This document shows, one piece after another, positions 5,957 to 38,180 of a stretch of DNA of 64,000 bases. How positions within the stretch are numbered: position 1 is the first letter of the stretch; every line of letters begins with the position of its first letter. The translations under genes and the position numbers were made by a program. This DNA comes from Solwaraspora sp. WMMA2065 (GTDB lineage Bacteria > Actinomycetota > Actinomycetes > Mycobacteriales > Micromonosporaceae). The stretch spans positions 3,348,001-3,412,000 of the forward strand of contig NZ_CP128361.1 of assembly GCF_030345075.1 (NCBI RefSeq). The letters are read 5' to 3'. The notes below the pieces were generated by a model. That model saw nothing but the letters and a program-made list of their open reading frames with translations, ran no database searches and was not told where the DNA came from.

Positions 5957-6084
5957 TGATGGTCCTCTCTTCGTCGGTCGCCGGGTCGCCGTCGACGTCG
6001 ACCGCGCCGTTGCGCGGGCCGACTCTGGCGTGAACCGGAACCTGGCCTGCTGTCAGTCTGCCACGGGCCGTGGCAGCGGGTCGC

Positions 6085-8449: not shown

Positions 8450-9394
8450 TCAACTCTTCCGACCTGCGGCAACAGGGTCCCGCTCGGCGTGTCCTACTAT
8501 AGCGCCTTCGATCCGCGCTCCGGCAACGTCTACCGGAAACAAGTGTGTCTGCCAGTCCATTCCCGGACAGAAGTCCGCCGGGACTTCGGTCAACGCCAGG
8601 ACGCTCGGACCCGCCCCACTGATCACCGCAGCCACACCGGTCGCCCGCAGTCGGCAGACCAGTTCCGCACTGGCCGGCATCGATGGACCCCGGTAGTCCT
8701 GGTGCAACCGGTCCTCGGTCGCGGCCAGCAACAGCGTCGGGTCAGCGGTGATCGCGTGGCTCAGCAGGGCGGCCCGGCCGGCGGTGAACGCGGCGTCCGC
8801 GTGCGGCACCTGGGCGGGCAGCGCCGCCCGCGCCGCCTCGGTCAGACCCCGGTTACCGGGTACGTAGACGGTCAGCGACACCGCCGGATGCGCCGGCACC
8901 GACACCGCGCGCGCCCCGGAGGCCTCGGTCCAGGCAATGGTGAAACCGCCGAGCAGGCAGGGCGCCACGTTGTCCGGGTGACCCTCCAGCCGGGCGGCGA
9001 TCCGTAGCGCGGCGGCGGTGTCCAGCAGCTGCGTCCCGCCGACGGCGAGCCCTCGGGCCAGTTGCACGCCGGCCACGATCGCCGCCGACGACGAACCCAG
9101 GCCGCGTGCCTGGGGGATGCGGTTCACGCAGCTCAACGCCAGTCCGGCCGGCCGGCCGCCGAGCTCGTCGAAGGTGGCGTGCATGGCGCGCACGACAAGA
9201 TGGCCGTCGTCGACCGGCAGCTCCCCGGTGCCTTCACCGGAGATCTCGACCCGGCAGCCGGCGGGCACCACCCGGGCGGTCACCTCGTCGTGGTGACCGA
9301 GCGCCAACCCGAGCGCGTCGAACCCGGGGCCGAGGTTGGCGCTGGTGGCCGGGACCCGCACGGTCACCGGCCCGGGAACGAAGCTGATACCCAT
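8450..9394 (-). CDS. thrB: Homoserine kinase
   Basis: This 314-residue GHMP kinase phosphorylates homoserine in threonine synthesis. The N-terminal substrate segment PATSANLGPGFDALG and the ATP-binding loop RGLGSSSAA (about residues 97-105) are clear, as is the C-terminal GHMP motif SGAGPSVLAL. hom and thrC lie on the same strand but 6.5 kb upstream, separated by transport and regulator genes. thrB may therefore be transcribed separately or from the SPFH gene's promoter. Confidence 0.95.
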   Translation of the reverse strand: MGISFVPGPVTVRVPATSANLGPGFDALGLALGHHDEVTARVVPAGCRVEISGEGTGELPVDDGHLVVRAMHATFDELGGRPAGLALSCVNRIPQARGLGSSSAAIVAGVQLARGLAVGGTQLLDTAAALRIAARLEGHPDNVAPCLLGGFTIAWTEASGARAVSVPAHPAVSLTVYVPGNRGLTEAARAALPAQVPHADAAFTAGRAALLSHAITADPTLLLAATEDRLHQDYRGPSMPASAELVCRLRATGVAAVISGAGPSVLALTEVPADFCPGMDWQTHLFPVDVAGARIEGAIVGHAERDPVAAGRKS

Positions 9395-9428
9395 CGCCCC
9401 ATGCTAGGTCCTGGCCGGTCGCCCGGTG

Positions 9429-24241: not shown

Positions 24242-24313
24242 GCCCCCGTAGCTCAGGGGATAGAGCACCGCCCTCCGGAGGCGGGAGCGCAGGTTCGAAT
24301 CCTGCCGGGGGCA
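24242..24313 (+). tRNA. tRNA-Arg (anticodon CCG)
   Basis: A full cloverleaf is visible: acceptor stem GCCCCCG / CGGGGGC, D-arm GCTC AGGGGAT AGAGC, anticodon stem CCGCC / GGCGG with loop CTCCGGA (anticodon CCG, reading CGG), and T-arm with GGTTCGAATCC. The CCA end is not encoded. Confidence 0.95.
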
Positions 24314-25936: not shown

Positions 25937-26401
25937 TCAGCGAAGACTGACCCAGCAGGTCCGGACCTTGTACGTCGCGGTGCTGGCCCGCAGCTGCACC
26001 GGGCCGGTCGGCGGTACGCCCATCGAGAAGAACCCGGCCTCGTCCACCTGGACGTCCTCGTACTGCCCGGCGGCCGACCGGGCGCTGAGCCGGCCCGTCG
26101 CGGCCGGAGAGAGCTGCCCCACCACCCCGGTCGCGGTGACCTCGATGGCGAGGACCACCGGGCCGGAACGGAAGGTCAGCGTCCGGTCGGTACCGCCGGA
26201 CCGGGTCGATCCGGCCGGATCGAGGTCACAGGCCGAGTCGAAGACCAGCTCGGCGACCGCCAGCTCGGCGTCGACGGTCCGCCAGCTGAACGCGGCCAGT
26301 GCCGCGGCCAGGAAGTGCTCCGGCACCGGTCCGGAGTCGCGCAGGGCGGCACCCAGCTCGATCAGCAGCTCGTCGTCACTGTTTGGTGGCCACTGCCGCA
26401 T
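25937..26401 (-). CDS. 154-aa partner protein of the sigma/S8/CHAT module
   Basis: The N-terminal half is helical (DDELLIELGAALR, PVPEHFLAAALAAFSWRTVDAEL). The C-terminal half looks like a small beta-sandwich with alternating strands and a VPPTGPVQLR turn, recalling carboxypeptidase-regulatory-like domains. I know of no assigned function. The ATG at 26401 (or GTG 26404) follows GGAGG and lies inside the 3' end of the sigma-factor gene, a 26-nt overlap, so translation is coupled. Its position suggests it holds, senses or inhibits the sigma factor, or is a substrate of the encoded proteases. Confidence 0.75.
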   Translation of the reverse strand: MRQWPPNSDDELLIELGAALRDSGPVPEHFLAAALAAFSWRTVDAELAVAELVFDSACDLDPAGSTRSGGTDRTLTFRSGPVVLAIEVTATGVVGQLSPAATGRLSARSAAGQYEDVQVDEAGFFSMGVPPTGPVQLRASTATYKVRTCWVSLR

Positions 26402-27101
26402 CACGTTCACCTCCGTTCCCCTGCTGCCCCCCGGGCGGGCCGATCCTGACGTACGGGGCGAGGGCTGGGCAGTTGCGCAGCTTCGCCAAGCATCGGGCCT
26501 GGGTCGGGCCGACACTTCCAGTGGGCATGCCGAGTTGCTCGCCGATCTCACGGTAGCTGGCCGGCGGGTCGGCGACGAGTAGCGTGAGTAGTTCCCGGCA
26601 GCGCGGCGGCAACTCGGCGAGCGCATCACGCAGCGCCTGGCACCGCTCGTCCCGGAGCAGGTCCTCGTCGGGAGTCGTCGGGTCGACCAGCCGGAAGACA
26701 CCGACATGCGCGTCGGTCGACTCGTCGTACGGGTCGAACGGCTGCGTACGCCGGCCGAGCCGCAGCATTCGGTGACACTCCCGTCGGGTGGTGGTCACCA
26801 GCCACGCGGGCAGAGCGTGTGCCTCGCGCAGCCGGCCGAGGTGCTCGACCAGCCGCAGCCAGACGGTCTGGTTGACGTCGGCGGCGTCGGCGTGGTCGAG
26901 CCCGTGGCTGCGGATCACCGCCGCTACCAGCGGGCCGTACCGGTGGACCAGCGCGGACCAGGCGGTCTCGTCGCCGGCGGCGGCAGCGGAAACCAGGTCG
27001 GGGACGGTAGCCGGCGCTGGGTCGGTAGCCGGTGCTGGGTCGGTAGCCGGTGCTGGGTCGGTAGCCGGCGGTGGGTCGGGGACGGCGTCGGGGCTGCTCA
27101 T
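26376..27101 (-). CDS. ECF-type RNA polymerase sigma factor
   Basis: This 241-residue protein has sigma region 2 (about residues 48-112, with the DVNQTVWLRLVEHL and LPAWLVTTTRRECHR segments) and region 4 (about 153-210, with the helix-turn-helix SYREIGEQLGMPTGSVGPTQARCLAKL). The N-terminus is a DPAPAT repeat encoded by 18-bp direct repeats (about 27010-27066). Regions 1 and 3 are absent, as in ECF sigmas. The ATG overlaps the S8 protease stop (ATGA). No classical zinc anti-sigma gene is present; the 154-aa protein downstream is the only candidate partner. Confidence 0.88.
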   Translation of the reverse strand: MSSPDAVPDPPPATDPAPATDPAPATDPAPATVPDLVSAAAAGDETAWSALVHRYGPLVAAVIRSHGLDHADAADVNQTVWLRLVEHLGRLREAHALPAWLVTTTRRECHRMLRLGRRTQPFDPYDESTDAHVGVFRLVDPTTPDEDLLRDERCQALRDALAELPPRCRELLTLLVADPPASYREIGEQLGMPTGSVGPTQARCLAKLRNCPALAPYVRIGPPGGQQGNGGERDAAVATKQ

Positions 27102-28441
27102 TCGACCAGCACGCCGTAGTCGGGGTGCCAGGCCGGGCCGGAGGTCAGCACCGCCGCGGCGGCCGCCGCGTCCAGCCCGGTGCCGGTCATCAGGGCGGCG
27201 AGCCGACCGGAGACGTGGCCGGTGGCGAAGGAGGTGCCGGCCCAGGCGGCGAAGCCGTCGAAGTGCAGCACCGGTTGGCCGGGCAGGACCATCTCCCCGT
27301 CGACGTACGTGCTGGTGCGGTCGCCGTACGCGCTGGCGTCCACCCACGAGCCGTAGTTGCTGTAGTCAGCCGGCACCGGGACGCCGTCGGTCGCGTCGAG
27401 GGCGGCGACGGCCAGCACACCCGGCAGCGCCGCCGGCCAGGACGGACGGCGGGTGCCGGCGTTGCCGGCGGCGGCGACCACCGCCGTCGTCTTGGGCAGC
27501 GCGGCGACGGCGTTGGCCAGCGGCAACGGCGGCTGGTCGTGCTGCGTGAAGTAGCCGAGGGAGAGGTTGATGACCGACACCTGCGGACCGAGCCGGCCGA
27601 TCGCGGCGATCAGGCTCTCCTCGTCGCCGATGCCGTTGGCGTCCAGTGCCGACTCCGGGTCGACCCGTACACCGGGGGCGGCCTGCCGTACGACACCGGC
27701 GACGAAGGTGCCGTGCCCGCCCTGCAGGGCCAGTTGGGTGCCGCCGAGGTACAGCGGGTCCTCGTCGTCGGGCTCCGGCAGGTAGCTGCCGCCGAGCCAG
27801 TCCGGGTGCACGTCGCCGGCGAGCCGCCAGATGCCGGTGTCGCAGACACCGACCGTGACGTCGGCCCCTTCACCGAGCCGGGCCGGATCCGGCGGTGGAA
27901 GCGCGGCCGCTACCCGTGGTGGCCCGCCGGGGTTGCCCATGATGTTGCCGAAGCCGAGCAGGACGTGGTGCGGCTGCACCTGCGGGGCCCGCCCGCCGGG
28001 CCACTGGCGCGGGTCGCGGAGCTTGTCGACCACGGCCGGGACGTCGGTCTCCCGGTCGAAGCACAGCCGGCCGACTTGGGCGAACCCGTCGTCCTCGGTG
28101 ACCTGGTGGCCATCGGCGCGCAGCCGGGCCGTCACCCGCTCGACGTCGGCCGGGGCGACCAGTAGCTGCCGGGGACGGTAGAGGAACTCCTTGCCGGCTG
28201 CCGCGGTGTACCGCCGTACCGCCGGGTGGGCGGCCAGGATCTCCAGGAACGCCCGTTGGTAGCTCTGGTCGAGGGACCGGTCGGCGGGCCCTGGCGCGCC
28301 GGCCTGGCCGGTCGGGTGCGACCAGTTGGTCGCCGGGCCGAGGGGCAGCAGCGCGGCCGCCAGCGCGGACCACCCCATCAGCTGCCGGCGGGAGACCTGC
28401 CCGGGGAGACCCGGCACGGGGTGACGGTGGTCGGACGACAC
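27098..28441 (-). CDS. S8 family subtilisin-like serine protease
   Basis: This 447-residue protease has the full triad: Asp201 in VCDTGI, His243 in GGHGTFVAG and Ser404 in GTSFATGHVSG, with oxyanion Asn327 in AAGNAG. The N-terminus has SRRQLMG followed by a hydrophobic stretch (about residues 17-38), which could be a Tat-type signal or an anchor. Residues 55-170 form an extra N-terminal domain before the catalytic core. The GTG at 28441 follows GGAGG with 5-nt spacing. It heads the operon with the sigma factor and is divergent from the CHAT gene. Whether it works inside or outside the cell is not certain. Confidence 0.9.
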   Translation of the reverse strand: MSSDHRHPVPGLPGQVSRRQLMGWSALAAALLPLGPATNWSHPTGQAGAPGPADRSLDQSYQRAFLEILAAHPAVRRYTAAAGKEFLYRPRQLLVAPADVERVTARLRADGHQVTEDDGFAQVGRLCFDRETDVPAVVDKLRDPRQWPGGRAPQVQPHHVLLGFGNIMGNPGGPPRVAAALPPPDPARLGEGADVTVGVCDTGIWRLAGDVHPDWLGGSYLPEPDDEDPLYLGGTQLALQGGHGTFVAGVVRQAAPGVRVDPESALDANGIGDEESLIAAIGRLGPQVSVINLSLGYFTQHDQPPLPLANAVAALPKTTAVVAAAGNAGTRRPSWPAALPGVLAVAALDATDGVPVPADYSNYGSWVDASAYGDRTSTYVDGEMVLPGQPVLHFDGFAAWAGTSFATGHVSGRLAALMTGTGLDAAAAAAVLTSGPAWHPDYGVLVE

Positions 28442-28607
28442 CTGACCCTCCAAGCGGGTGGGAGACGGGGCCGGCACCACGAGGGCGACCACAGAAGGTT
28501 ACGGGACCGACACGATTATTTCAAAGGATAGTTATGTGTCAATTAAATGACTGGCGCCCGGGTGCCGCCGTTGACCCGGGGTGCACGGGTGGGGAATTCT
28601 CTGTCTC
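28442..28607. promoter_or_regulatory. Divergent promoter region between S8 protease and CHAT genes
   Basis: This 166-bp region contains a strikingly A+T-rich stretch (about 28512-28550), rare in this genome, and should hold back-to-back promoters. No known operator was recognised. It is a plausible target for the encoded sigma factor. Confidence 0.45.
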
Positions 28608-31283
28608 GTGACCGAACGCACCGATTCCGGTGTCGACCTGGCACAGCGGGCCCTGGACACCGTCCAGCGCTACCCACACGAGGCCATCTCGATCGCCCAC
28701 CGGGTGCTTGCCGACGCGCCGGACGCCCGCGCCCGATCCACTGCGGAACGCGCCATCGGCCTGGCGTTACGCGAGCTCAACGACCTAACCGGCGCGGCAC
28801 GCCACCTGCACCGGGCGGTGCGGGCTGGGGACGACGCCCGGCTTCGGGCGCTGGCCCGGATGAGCCTCGGCTACGTCCTGGCCAGCGCCGGCCGGACCAC
28901 TGCCGCGCTGCGGGTCGTCACCCTGGCCCTGCCGCAGCTGACCGGCGCCGACGCCGGCCGGGCCCGGATGCAGCGCGGCGTGGTGCTGCACTACCGGGGC
29001 CGGTTCGACGAGGCGGTCCGCGACTACGACCAGGCGGTGGAGATCGCCCGCCGTGAGGGCGACCTCCTGCTGGAGGCGCGCGCCCGCAACAACCGGGGGC
29101 TGCTCAACGCCCACCTCAACGCCCATCTCGATGCCGACACCGACGACGACCTGAACCGCGCCGCGGCCATCTTCAGTCAGCTCGGGCTGGACCTGGCCGC
29201 CGCCGACGCCCGGTGGAACAGCGGCATCGCCACCGGGCAACGCGGCGACGTGGCCGGCGCGCTGCACTGCTTCGCCGAGGTCGACAACGAGTACCGCCGG
29301 CTCGCAGTGCCCCGCCCCGCGCTGCTGCTGGACCGCTTCGAGCTGTTGCTGTCCGTACCGCTGATCGACGAGGCGGTCACGGTGGCCGAGACCGCCGTGA
29401 CCGAGCTGCGCCGGCTCGGGATGGCCTCGGACCTGGCCGAGGCGCTGCTCGCCCAGGCGCGGGCCGCGCTGCTCGCCGGCGACCTGGCCACCGCGGCCGA
29501 CACCGCCGGGGCGGCACGTAGCCGGTTCCGACGGCAGGGCCGGCGGGCCTGGGCCACCCTCGCCCGACACGTCGAGCTGCGGGCCGGGTACGCCCGGGGC
29601 ACCCGGTCCCCCGCGCTGCTCGCCGCGATGATCCGTACCGCCGACCAGCTCGACGCCACCGGCTGGCCCGGACCCGCCCTCACCAGCAGGATCGAGGCCG
29701 CCCGGCTGGCCACCACGCTGGGCCGGCACAGCCGGGCGGTCGAACTGATGGAGGTCGCCGCGGACGCCCGGCGGCGGGGCACCGCACCCCGCCGCGCCCA
29801 GGGGTGGTACGCCCTGGCGTTGCGCCACCGGCTGGCCGGCGACGAGTCCGGGGCGGCCCGTGCGCTGCGCCACGGTCTAGCGGTACTCGACGGACACCGC
29901 GCCTCGCTCGGCGCGACCGAACTGCGGGCCAACAGCGGGACGTACGGTAAGGAGCTGGCCGCCGAAGGCCTGGACATCGCCATCCAGCGGGGCGCACCGG
30001 CGCAGGTGTTCACCTGGGCGGAACGGTGGCGGGCCAACGCGCTACGGATGCGGCGGGTCTCACCGCCACCGGATCCGGACCTGGCCACCGCGCTGACCGA
30101 GCTGCGGATGGTCAGCGCGGCACTCGAGGACGCGTTGTTGGCCGGCAACCCGGTGCAGACGCTACGCGGCAGTCAGGCCCGGCTGGAGCAGCGGATCCGG
30201 GAGCTGGCCCGAGGGGTCAACGGTGGCGGCGAACTGCTCGCGCCGCCCGGGGTCACCGACCTCGCTGCGGCGCTCGGCGCCGCCGTACTGCTGGAACTGG
30301 TGGCGCACGGCGAGCGGCTGCTCGCGGTGCTGGTCCACGACGGCCGACCGACGCTGCACGACCTCGGGTCGTTGACCGACGCGGTACGGGTGGCCCGGCT
30401 GCACCGGTTCGGGTTGCGCCGGCTGGTCACCACCGGCGACAGCGCCGACGCCCGGACCGGGGTACGGCACACTGCCGGCGCACTGGACCGGCAACTGTTC
30501 GATCCGGTACGCGACCTGATCGCCGACCGTCCGCTGGTGATCGTGCCGATCGGCGACCTGCACGCCGTACCGTGGTCGGGTCTGCCGACCTGTGCGGGCC
30601 GGGCGGTGACGGTGGCGCCATCGGCGACGGCGTGGCTGCGGTCCGCCGGCCGGCGGTCCGGCGGGGTGGATCCGCAGCCGGCCGGCGGACCGGCGGCTGG
30701 GGCGCAGCCGGCCGGCGGGCCGGCGGTGCTGGTGGCCGGGCCGCGACTACCGGCTGCCGAGACCGAGGTACGGCAGCTCAGCGCGGTGCTGCCCGGCTCC
30801 CGCACGCTCACCGGGGCCGCTGCCACCGCCGACGCGGTAACCGGGGCACTCAACGGCGCGCGACTGGCCCACATCGCCGCGCACGGGCGGTTCCGGGCGG
30901 ACAACCCGCTGTTCTCCACACTGGAGCTGGCAGACGGACCATTGACCGCGTACGAACTGGAGCGGATCATCAGTCCGCCCGGTTGCGTGGTGTTGTCGGC
31001 CTGTGATTCCGGGCTGGCCGGGGTCCGCCCCGGCGACGAGGTGATGGGCTTCACCGCGGTGCTGCTGGCGCTGGGCGCCCGCTGTCTGATCGCGACGGTG
31101 CTGCCGGTGCCGGGCGAGCTGACCACCGTGCTAATGCTGGAGTTGCACCGCGAGATGCTGGCCGGGCATGCTCCGGCGGTGGCGCTGGCCCGGGCACAGC
31201 GGGCGTTCGCCGCGGACCCGGACGGTGCGGTCGGGGCCCGGCATGCGACGGCCGCCGCGTTCGTCTGCTTCGGCGCCGGTTGA
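28608..31283 (+). CDS. TPR-CHAT caspase-like protein
   Basis: This 891-residue protein has TPR-like helical repeats over about residues 15-470 and a C-terminal CHAT domain (about 590-890). The caspase-type catalytic dyad is intact: His759 in HIAAHGRF and Cys799 in LSACDSGLAG. The TPR part should bind a partner or inhibitor and the CHAT part should cleave a protein substrate. The known parallel is Csx29, the TPR-CHAT protease of type III-E CRISPR (Craspase), which cleaves Csx30 to free a sigma factor. The start is uncertain (GTG 28608 or GTG 28581). The protein has no signal peptide. The S8 protease and sigma factor are encoded divergently. Confidence 0.9.
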   Translation: MTERTDSGVDLAQRALDTVQRYPHEAISIAHRVLADAPDARARSTAERAIGLALRELNDLTGAARHLHRAVRAGDDARLRALARMSLGYVLASAGRTTAALRVVTLALPQLTGADAGRARMQRGVVLHYRGRFDEAVRDYDQAVEIARREGDLLLEARARNNRGLLNAHLNAHLDADTDDDLNRAAAIFSQLGLDLAAADARWNSGIATGQRGDVAGALHCFAEVDNEYRRLAVPRPALLLDRFELLLSVPLIDEAVTVAETAVTELRRLGMASDLAEALLAQARAALLAGDLATAADTAGAARSRFRRQGRRAWATLARHVELRAGYARGTRSPALLAAMIRTADQLDATGWPGPALTSRIEAARLATTLGRHSRAVELMEVAADARRRGTAPRRAQGWYALALRHRLAGDESGAARALRHGLAVLDGHRASLGATELRANSGTYGKELAAEGLDIAIQRGAPAQVFTWAERWRANALRMRRVSPPPDPDLATALTELRMVSAALEDALLAGNPVQTLRGSQARLEQRIRELARGVNGGGELLAPPGVTDLAAALGAAVLLELVAHGERLLAVLVHDGRPTLHDLGSLTDAVRVARLHRFGLRRLVTTGDSADARTGVRHTAGALDRQLFDPVRDLIADRPLVIVPIGDLHAVPWSGLPTCAGRAVTVAPSATAWLRSAGRRSGGVDPQPAGGPAAGAQPAGGPAVLVAGPRLPAAETEVRQLSAVLPGSRTLTGAAATADAVTGALNGARLAHIAAHGRFRADNPLFSTLELADGPLTAYELERIISPPGCVVLSACDSGLAGVRPGDEVMGFTAVLLALGARCLIATVLPVPGELTTVLMLELHREMLAGHAPAVALARAQRAFAADPDGAVGARHATAAAFVCFGAG

Positions 31284-35996: not shown

Positions 35997-36926
35997 ATGA
36001 GGCTTGCCCACCACAAGAGAACTCGACTGTCCGGACTCCGACGTAGCGCGCTGGCCGCGACCGCGCTCGTCGTGGCTTCCACCGCGACAGTCGCCGTCGC
36101 CACTCAAGCCAGCGCCGCAGCCGGTTGCCGGGTCAACTACAACATCACCAGCCAGTGGTCCGGCGGCTTCGGCGCGACCATCGACATCACCAACCTCGGC
36201 GACCCGATCTCCGGCTGGACACTCCAGTTCACCTTCCCCGCAGGCCAGACAATCACTCAGCTCTGGAACGGCTCGGTCAGCCAGTCCGGCAGCAACGTGA
36301 CCGTCAGAAACGCCTCGTACAACGGCAACATTCCCACCAACGGCACCGTCAGCCCAGGGTTCAACGGAGCCTGGACCAACAACAACCCGAAACCCACCTC
36401 GTTCACCCTGAACGGCACCGTCTGCACCGGCTCCACCACCCCCACCACCGCACCACCCACCACCGCACCACCCACCACCGCACCACCCACCACCGCACCA
36501 CCCACCACCGCACCACCCACTCAGACGGTCTTCGCCATCAACGCTGGCGGCAGCGCCTTCACCAGCTCGGACGGCACCGCCTTCGCTGCCGACACCGGCT
36601 TCTCCGGCGGCTCCACCTACACCGTCAGCGACTCCATCAACGGCACTACCGACGACGCTCTCTTCCAGAGCGAACGCTACGGCAACCTCAGCTACTCAGC
36701 CGCAGTGCCGAACGGCTACTACACCGTCACCCTCTACTTCGCCGAGGTCTACCACACCGCAGCCGGCCTCCGGAGCTTCGACGTCCTCATGGAGGACACC
36801 GAACAGGTCAGCGACCTCGACATCTTCGCCCGAGTCGGCGCGGACACCGCCTATACCACCCAGAGCTCCGTGGCAGTCGGCGACGGCACCATCAACATCC
36901 AATTCGTATCCAACGTCGAGAACTGA
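35997..36926 (+). pseudogene. CBM2-malectin secreted enzyme, 5' fragment (split by IS3 element)
   Basis: This fragment encodes a signal peptide (cut near ASA-A, residue 41), a family 2 cellulose/xylan-binding module (about 43-142), a Thr/Pro linker of five APPTT-type repeats, and most of a malectin domain (about 175-308). The reading frame ends at TGA 36924-36926, which is the first three bases of the inserted element. The missing end of the malectin domain resumes in frame at 38224. The fragment could still be made as a truncated secreted carbohydrate-binding protein. Confidence 0.9.
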
Positions 36927-36996: not shown

Positions 36997-37290
36997 ATGG
37001 CACGCATAAGCTCATACACCCCAGAGTTCCGTGAAGAAGCAGTGCAACTCGTTCTACAGTCGAACAAGCCAGTGTCGCAGGTTGCCCGGGAGATCGACGT
37101 TCACCCGGAGACGCTCCGTTCCTGGGTCCGCCAGTACCGGCGGGAAAACAGCGGCGCCCAGGACAGCCCACCGATCGGCGTCGACGAGCGCGCTCGACTG
37201 AAGGAACTCGAACGTCGCAACCGGGAACTCGAAATGGAGAACAGCTTCCTGAAAAAAGCCGCGGCGTACTTCGCGAAGGACCCTCGGTAA
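36997..37290 (+). CDS. IS3-family transposase OrfA
   Basis: This 97-residue protein has an N-terminal helix-turn-helix (PVSQVAREIDVHPETLRSWVRQ) that binds the element ends. A leucine-zipper-like helix (LKELERRNRELEMENSFLKK) follows. A run of six adenines followed by G at 37252-37258 lies near its end, suited to -1 ribosomal frameshifting into OrfB, whose frame is -1 relative to OrfA. Confidence 0.92.
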   Translation: MARISSYTPEFREEAVQLVLQSNKPVSQVAREIDVHPETLRSWVRQYRRENSGAQDSPPIGVDERARLKELERRNRELEMENSFLKKAAAYFAKDPR

Positions 37291-37295
37291 CGAGC

Positions 37296-38180
37296 TTGTA
37301 CGAGTTCATCGAGACGATGCGACTCGACACCGCGAAGTACGCCTACCCCGTCGACTTCATGTGCGAACAACTCGGCGTGTCCAGGTCCGGATACTACGAA
37401 TGGCGAACCCGCCCCGACTCCGCGACCGCCACCCGCCGCGCCCACCTTCGATCGACCATCGAGGAGGTGTTCGCCGCGTCCGACGGCACCTACGGGCATC
37501 GACGTGTCCACGCGCAACTGCGGCGCCAGGGCGTGTCCGCCGGGCCGGAACTCGTCCGCCAGCTGATGCGCGAGCTCGGGCTCGTGCCGTGCCAGCCCCG
37601 CCCGAGGCGGTGGGGTCTCACCCAGTCGTCGTCCGGCACGGTGCCTGACCTCGTCGGCCGGGAGTTCACCGCCGACGCGCCTGGCGAGAAGCTCGTCGGC
37701 GACATCACGTACATCCCGACCGGCGAGGGGTGGCTGTATCTGGCGACCGTCATCGACTGCTGCACGAAGGAAGTCATCGGATACGCGATGGACGACCACT
37801 ACCAGACGCCGTTGATATCCCGCGCCATCCGTAACGCCGCCCGGAATCGCGAACTCAGGAAGAACGCCATCTTTCATTCGGACCGGGGCAGCAACTACAT
37901 GTCGGACGACTACGGCAGAACGCTTCGGGATCTGAGGTTGCGGCGATCTGCTGGCCGGACCGGAATTTGTTTCGACAATGCGATGGCGGAATCGTTCTTC
38001 GGTGCGCTGAAGAACGAACGCGTGTCGCGTGTGAAGTATCCCACTCGTGAGGCGGCACGCCGGGACGTTACTGCCTACATCGAATTCTGGTACAATCGTC
38101 AGCGTCTGCATTCAGCGGTGGGCTACCGACCTCCCCGGGAAGTCCACGCAGAGTTCGAGAACCTTCAAATCGCGGCGTGA
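37296..38180 (+). CDS. IS3-family transposase OrfB (DDE integrase)
   Basis: This 294-residue catalytic part has an HTH_21-type N-terminus (YGHRRVHAQLRRQG) and an rve integrase core. The DDE residues are in GDITYIP, HSDRGSNY and NAMAESFFGALKNE. The separate reading starts at TTG 37296, but the active enzyme is expected to be the OrfAB frameshift fusion. Confidence 0.92.
   Translation: MYEFIETMRLDTAKYAYPVDFMCEQLGVSRSGYYEWRTRPDSATATRRAHLRSTIEEVFAASDGTYGHRRVHAQLRRQGVSAGPELVRQLMRELGLVPCQPRPRRWGLTQSSSGTVPDLVGREFTADAPGEKLVGDITYIPTGEGWLYLATVIDCCTKEVIGYAMDDHYQTPLISRAIRNAARNRELRKNAIFHSDRGSNYMSDDYGRTLRDLRLRRSAGRTGICFDNAMAESFFGALKNERVSRVKYPTREAARRDVTAYIEFWYNRQRLHSAVGYRPPREVHAEFENLQIAA

Follow-up and report, generated by a model that had tools for sequence, protein, structure and literature searches.

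A 64-kb stretch of the Solwaraspora sp. WMMA2065 genome (64,000 nt; NZ_CP128361.1, 3,348,001-3,412,000, forward strand; hereafter the window, within which all coordinates are given) contains four adjoining genes that encode an extracytoplasmic function (ECF) sigma factor, a small protein that we term the partner, a subtilisin-like S8 protease and a TPR-CHAT protease. We propose, at a probability of about 0.45, that these genes form a proteolytic sigma switch of the ECF54 type, in which the CHAT/S8 half would cut the partner and so free the sigma factor. On our best reading, this would be a CRISPR-free switch that shares the working principle of Craspase but is not part of that system. Craspase supplies the functioning precedent: according to the account in PMC10028731, Csx29, once activated by RNA, cleaves a sigma inhibitor within the flexible linker between its two domains. 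The first-pass annotation of this DNA had put forward a sensor-protease-sigma relay, which stands as a reasonable inference now backed by the coupling of sigma to partner, the coupling of S8 to CHAT and an invariant arginine in the partner loop, a candidate cleavage site.

Co-occurrence and gene order of the module

Loci were gathered through the partner (20 from the order, 78 named, 18 more from the order, 20 from the phylum and 20 divergent) and scored against profiles for which the window proteins served as seeds, a gene being counted if it lay within 7 kb. The 156 loci with a partner, window included, were reduced to 146 by dropping 10 near-duplicates (at least 97% identity), and to 116 complete loci, each of whose flanks reaches 6 kb or more, by dropping another 30. 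All four genes lie within 7 kb in 88 of these 116 complete, non-redundant loci, a count that gives no phylum-wide frequency, since the partner is present in every locus by construction and mostly best matches were sampled. The other complete loci hold sigma and CHAT (9), sigma alone (15), S8 and CHAT (2) or none of the three (2); the sigma factor of L042, among the 88, is distant and doubtful, those of L152 and L153, in the sigma-alone set, are weak or doubtful, and all three are probably unrelated. Gene order takes 20 forms over the 116 loci, 13 of them with all four genes, and that of the window is the commonest (45/116). Such reshuffling of a constant gene set is strong evidence that the four genes make up one functional unit. 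Because they are co-conserved in 88 of 116 loci, although the 6.74-Mb host genome has 22 S8, 31 sigma70-region-2 and 5 CHAT matches, chance grouping is excluded, and the module clearly withstands the refutation that the first-pass annotation had named, that homologues might not stay together in other genomes.

The same association appears at the level of whole genomes: among 150 genomes of the order, 68 have a match to the partner profile (E <= 1e-3), 63 have one to the CHAT subfamily (E <= 1e-30) and 61 hold both (Fisher p = 2e-31 over the 150 genomes, phylogeny ignored); in the phylum, 31 of 296 genomes match the partner profile. By genus, as counted by hand, 27 have both, 3 the partner only, 2 CHAT only and 24 neither; G072, counted as "CHAT only", does hold a weak partner and sigma on closer look. 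In the reverse direction, a partner match lies within 6 kb of 25 of the 30 CHAT matches of at least 600 bits and of 63 of the 86 of at least 300 bits, several of the misses falling at contig ends and others being truly apart. S8 looks less essential than CHAT, because, of the 23 complete loci in the divergent branch (partner below 80 bits), 18 have CHAT together with sigma and partner, and 12 have S8.

Judged by gene position, the module is built of two halves, sigma-partner and S8-CHAT, that are able to lie apart in one genome. The sigma gene adjoins the partner gene on the same strand in 100 of 110 loci with sigma (redundant set), and in L050 a natural fusion places sigma and then partner in one ORF (open reading frame). 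Of the 90 complete loci with both S8 and CHAT, 81 have the two side by side, and no other pair of proteins shows so strong a correlation of pairwise distances (r 0.87, partial 0.68; 75 loci). G035 has a single partner match, accompanied by sigma (L055), and a single CHAT match, accompanied by S8 (L193); these lie at interior positions of two different contigs. Two further candidates for a split genome were set aside: in G014 the sigma-partner pair sits at a contig start, and G118, similar to G035, is no clean case, having several copies of partner and CHAT. Distance co-evolution was likewise rejected as proof that sigma binds the partner, as the test did not single out that pair.

The gene grouping itself is not new. 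The ECF54 account in PMC8999054, which cites Huang 2015 and Casas-Pastor 2021, gives this actinobacterial sigma factor a conserved context of carboxypeptidase, subtilase and CHAT and proposes proteolytic control without an anti-sigma factor; its model protein is SFT86700.1 from Geodermatophilus amargosae. Our locus L126, from G. amargosae DSM 46136, holds the module, and its sigma factor, the putative equivalent of SFT86700.1, matches the window sigma at 169 bits and 49% pairwise identity, with the next host-genome sigma at 44 bits. The module is thus of the described kind, an assignment made by context and the L126 match. New are the fold of the partner, the two separable halves, the S8 protease as a predicted pro-subtilisin and a near-invariant arginine (Arg67) in the partner; the ECF54 account in the review names neither the partner fold nor separable halves nor an invariant Arg. 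That account presents ECF54 control as a proposal, as yet untested, which Arg67, a defined protease pair and the two halves make directly testable. A search of the literature on CHAT with sigma, ECF or protease, whose coverage left out most subscription papers, returned no experimental study of the module.

Some loci depart from the common pattern. Blastococcus mobilis has two adjoining partner-S8-CHAT sets about 11.6 kb apart (L092/L093), with one sigma found, and in L045 an additional partner copy, with a lower score than the first, is located between the sigma and CHAT genes (8916-9422). In three Jiangella loci (L115, L116, L119) a sigma-partner pair, with no S8 or CHAT nearby, lies downstream of a large ORF whose product looks exported; in L115, the one locus scanned for a replacement protease, this ORF proved to be NAGPA (phosphodiester glycosidase)/metallophosphatase and was taken as unrelated, and the long ORF upstream of sigma in L116 and L119 begins like that of L115. 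At a further place in the host genome, an S8 match and a partial CHAT match lie on opposite strands, about 1.2 kb apart (G000:C1, 1708989-1711638).

The partner and its loop arginine

The partner matches no Pfam or NCBIfam family above cut-off. An AlphaFold2 model built from 66 sequences (mean predicted local distance difference test score, pLDDT, 85.6) predicts two N-terminal helices (residues 9-22 and 28-41), a loop (block pLDDT 53 over residues 61-70) and an Ig/transthyretin-like beta-sandwich (block pLDDT 92-97 over residues 71-150). We draw no function from this fold, because Foldseek (no match at E <= 0.001) and VIA-align (Z at most 7.8, over part of the beta domain only) returned generic Ig-like sandwiches at best; a weak PDB sequence match to the Ig domain of a biofilm-associated protein was likewise taken as evidence of fold only. 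Of the 66 partners, 32 match CarboxypepD_reg, a non-enzymatic, regulatory-like domain, at E <= 0.1 (best 2.7e-7), the window partner scoring 0.076, under the cut-off, and the "carboxypeptidase" of the published ECF54 context is probably this partner. The 19 families listed for the partners include no zinc-finger or anti-sigma family except RsiG, in 1 of 66 members (0.0033). The window partner, with no recognisable anti-sigma family, thereby differs from the zinc-binding anti-sigma (ZAS) factors.

Within the loop, Arg67 is the lowest-entropy column of the 146 non-redundant partners (145 Arg and 1 His, in L179), and in 140 partners a small residue (S, G or A) comes next. Around it, the loop (57-72) varies in length and its neighbouring positions have entropies of 1.8 to 3.3 bits. 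The same pattern emerges without an alignment: a simple pattern parsed 117 of the 146 loops, and every one of these contains Arg, 112 of them at positions 8-12 after DS (mean 47 and maximum 64 in 2000 within-loop shuffles), while 109 contain [VTALMI]R[SGA]. An arginine followed by a small residue in a variable, low-confidence loop could be a cleavage site; alternatively, Arg67 could be a binding residue.

The proteases and the proposed switch

The catalytic residues that the first-pass annotation had assigned, D201-H243-S404 in S8 and H759-C799 in CHAT, proved right. They correspond to D218/H260/S421 and H768/C808 in longest-ORF numbering, which starts 17 (S8) and 9 (CHAT) codons before the GTG codons at 28441 and 28608 that give the earlier numbers, and they are invariant in the aligned homologues (86/87/87 rows for the S8 triad and 82 rows for the CHAT dyad, redundant set). 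In the model of the 464-aa S8 ORF, a ferredoxin-like domain at 93-179 (block pLDDT 91-98) precedes the catalytic domain, the linker between the two (181-190) being weakly modelled (57); because this model matches unprocessed pro-subtilisins, S8 is probably synthesised as a zymogen. Among solved structures, the sequence of CHAT comes closest to "CHAT domain protein" chains (E 5.5e-4), which we take to be Craspase structures. The clan-CD relatives of CHAT, namely separase, metacaspase, clostripain and gingipain R, cut after basic residues; for this reason, and because 9 of 116 loci have CHAT without S8 nearby, CHAT is more likely than S8 to be the protease that would cut after Arg.

How the switch would operate can be outlined as follows. 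The partner, co-translated with the sigma factor, would bind it and hold it inactive; TPR-CHAT would be the probable sensor, through its TPRs, and the pro-subtilisin S8 would complete the protease half. On a signal, this half would cut the flexible loop of the partner, most likely after Arg67, and the split partner would release the sigma factor. S8 might reinforce this cleavage, be switched on by CHAT or remove the resulting fragments. Post-translational control is made plausible by the S8/CHAT intergenic region, where ATTGAC, 16-17 bases and AA(G/T)AAT face S8 and a TTGAC box faces CHAT in 15 of 15 Micromonospora-group sequences, sites that look like housekeeping promoters. The S8/CHAT gap of Saccharothrix loci differs in sequence, and an extra conserved stretch lies ahead of sigma: L072-L079 share a leader in the S8-sigma gap, about 150 bases before sigma (TGTATCTG ... 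CTCCGTAGTGTGTGGCAGC ...), for which an Rfam search with L072 and L073 gave no match.

Several observations weigh against cleavage of the partner as the releasing step. The published proposal is itself a different one: section 3.3 of PMC8999054 has the peptidases keep the system off by degrading the sigma factor. A reading close to it, with sigma degraded directly and the partner serving as adaptor or protector, strikes us as unlikely; it is in keeping with the partner distances, which tie more to S8 (partial 0.35) than to sigma or CHAT (0.16 each), but it sits poorly with the cleavage-like conserved site in the partner (sigma was not examined in the same way) and with the 15 of 116 complete loci in which sigma and partner occur without S8 or CHAT within 7 kb (the sigma of L152 and L153 being doubtful). 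Export is a second difficulty. An (S/T)RRx motif and hydrophobic stretch, resembling a signal for twin-arginine translocation (Tat), mark the N-terminus of all 18 parsed non-redundant S8 proteins of the Micromonospora-Plantactinospora-Verrucosispora group, window included, and none of the 60 parsed from other loci (103 non-redundant loci have S8, of which 78 were parsed and 25 were not). The S8 of the window clade may thus be exported by Tat and act outside the cell, apart from sigma, which would be awkward for a cytosolic relay.

The conservation of Arg67 also reaches beyond the proteases. It is kept in 28 of 28 sigma-only loci (15 complete, 13 at contig edges), in three loci that show none of the other three genes, and in the divergent partner of the complete genome G012, which has no CHAT match at 1e-30. 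Its presence in loci with only sigma nearby fits either unlinked proteases elsewhere in the genome or a role that involves no protease. Furthermore, the account of Csx30 in PMC10028731 finds no single residue essential for cutting, which leaves an invariant residue at the cut without a counterpart in Craspase. The sigma-only loci, G012 and the Csx30 result would all suit a partner that is a ligand-gated sigma regulator, with Arg67 and its loop serving to bind sigma, RNA polymerase or a ligand and the proteases acting elsewhere. We hold this to be distinctly improbable, given the variable positions that flank Arg67, the changing loop length and the small residue after the arginine.

Related systems, gene layout and surroundings

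The likeness of the module to Craspase (Csx29, Csx30, CASP-sigma) lies in a TPR-CHAT protein with a His/Cys dyad, an ECF-type sigma factor and a small, possibly sigma-inhibiting protein that has a flexible loop. It differs in having a second protease, S8, and in its CHAT protein, which scores 15.2 bits, against a Csx29 family cut-off of 300. As for kinship of the 154-aa partner with Csx30, the 5 PDB matches listed for its profile include no CRISPR chain, and the fold searches, which barely covered its helices, returned generic beta-sandwiches. The absence of CRISPR parts, noted in the first-pass annotation, holds for arrays in the 64-kb window (direct repeats of at least 23 bases within 100 bases; tandem repeats only were found), the cas genes of the genome, Cas7-11 among them, not having been searched for. 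In the type III CRISPR system CalpL-CalpT-CalpS, a SAVED-Lon protease driven by cyclic oligoadenylate reportedly cuts a sigma inhibitor and thereby releases a sigma factor; family scans reported no SAVED or Lon domain for the window proteins. The Caspase/EACC2 and TRADD-N conflict systems with ECF sigma and TPR proteins have different partner domains, and subtilisin goes unmentioned in their description in PMC8195603.

A role in phage response, also raised by the first-pass annotation, finds little support. An anti-phage or programmed-cell-death module, that is, a CRISPR-free Craspase-like defence, would accord with the closest solved CHAT chains and with two PADLOC results, a match to BovA for CHAT (3.8e-7) and one to "subtilase" for S8 (1.5e-5). 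We nevertheless judge it very unlikely: PADLOC gave no match at 0.001 among 10 neighbouring window proteins; the neighbours are mostly housekeeping or metabolic, with one transposase; the partner occurs in 0 of 50,697 phage records and in 1 of 72,556 plasmid records, a chromosome-sized one from Nonomuraea; and the 25 largest neighbour clusters (L036-L151) contain no fifth conserved gene, the others being present in at most 22 loci and looking lineage-bound. A bolder extension of the proteolytic switch, which we regard as doubtful, would make the module a widespread CRISPR-free counterpart of Craspase, in which a separase-like TPR-CHAT and a pro-subtilisin free an ECF sigma factor by cutting its inhibitor after an invariant Arg, type III-E having added RNA guidance to an older switch. 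The proteolytic switch itself, if right, would already mean that caspase-fold proteases release sigma factors outside CRISPR, in common Actinobacteria.

The four-gene layout and the chain of overlaps through sigma, S8 and partner that had been described at first were borne out by an ORF check (Table 1). ATGA at 27101-27098 is common to the S8 stop and the sigma start, and the sigma end (26376) overlaps the partner start by 26 bases. Pfam and NCBIfam identify Peptidase_S8 (1.7e-20), CHAT with TPRs (3.3e-38) and sigma70-ECF (TIGR02937, 1.2e-23), the sigma factor matching in region 2 (5.4e-13) and region 4 (1.8e-7). At 26987-27076, 18-base tandem repeats code for a PATDPA-type tract at the sigma N-terminus.

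Table 1. Features of the module and their positions in the window
Feature	Position	Strand	Basis or remark
Partner, 154 aa	25937..26401	-	ORF; ATG start at 26401
ECF sigma factor, regions 2 and 4	26376..27101	-	ORF, Pfam/NCBIfam
S8 subtilisin-like protease, predicted pro-protein, Tat-like N-terminus	27098..28441	-	GTG start 28441, GGAGG before it
TPR-CHAT protease, His/Cys dyad, divergent	28608..31283	+	GTG start 28608; ORF, Pfam
Partner Arg67 codon, candidate cleavage site	26201..26203	-	
Divergent S8/CHAT intergenic region	28442..28607		promoter-like site on the S8 side, TTGAC box on the CHAT side

Elsewhere in the window, an IS3-type transposase pair (36997-38180 and 35997-36926; orfB with rve/HTH_21) directly follows a CBM2-malectin ORF whose malectin match is incomplete and which the insertion may have interrupted. 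A tRNA gene lies near the module (24242-24313, plus strand), and an actinobacterial L31 ribosomal protein leader is found at 5976-6044 on the minus strand.

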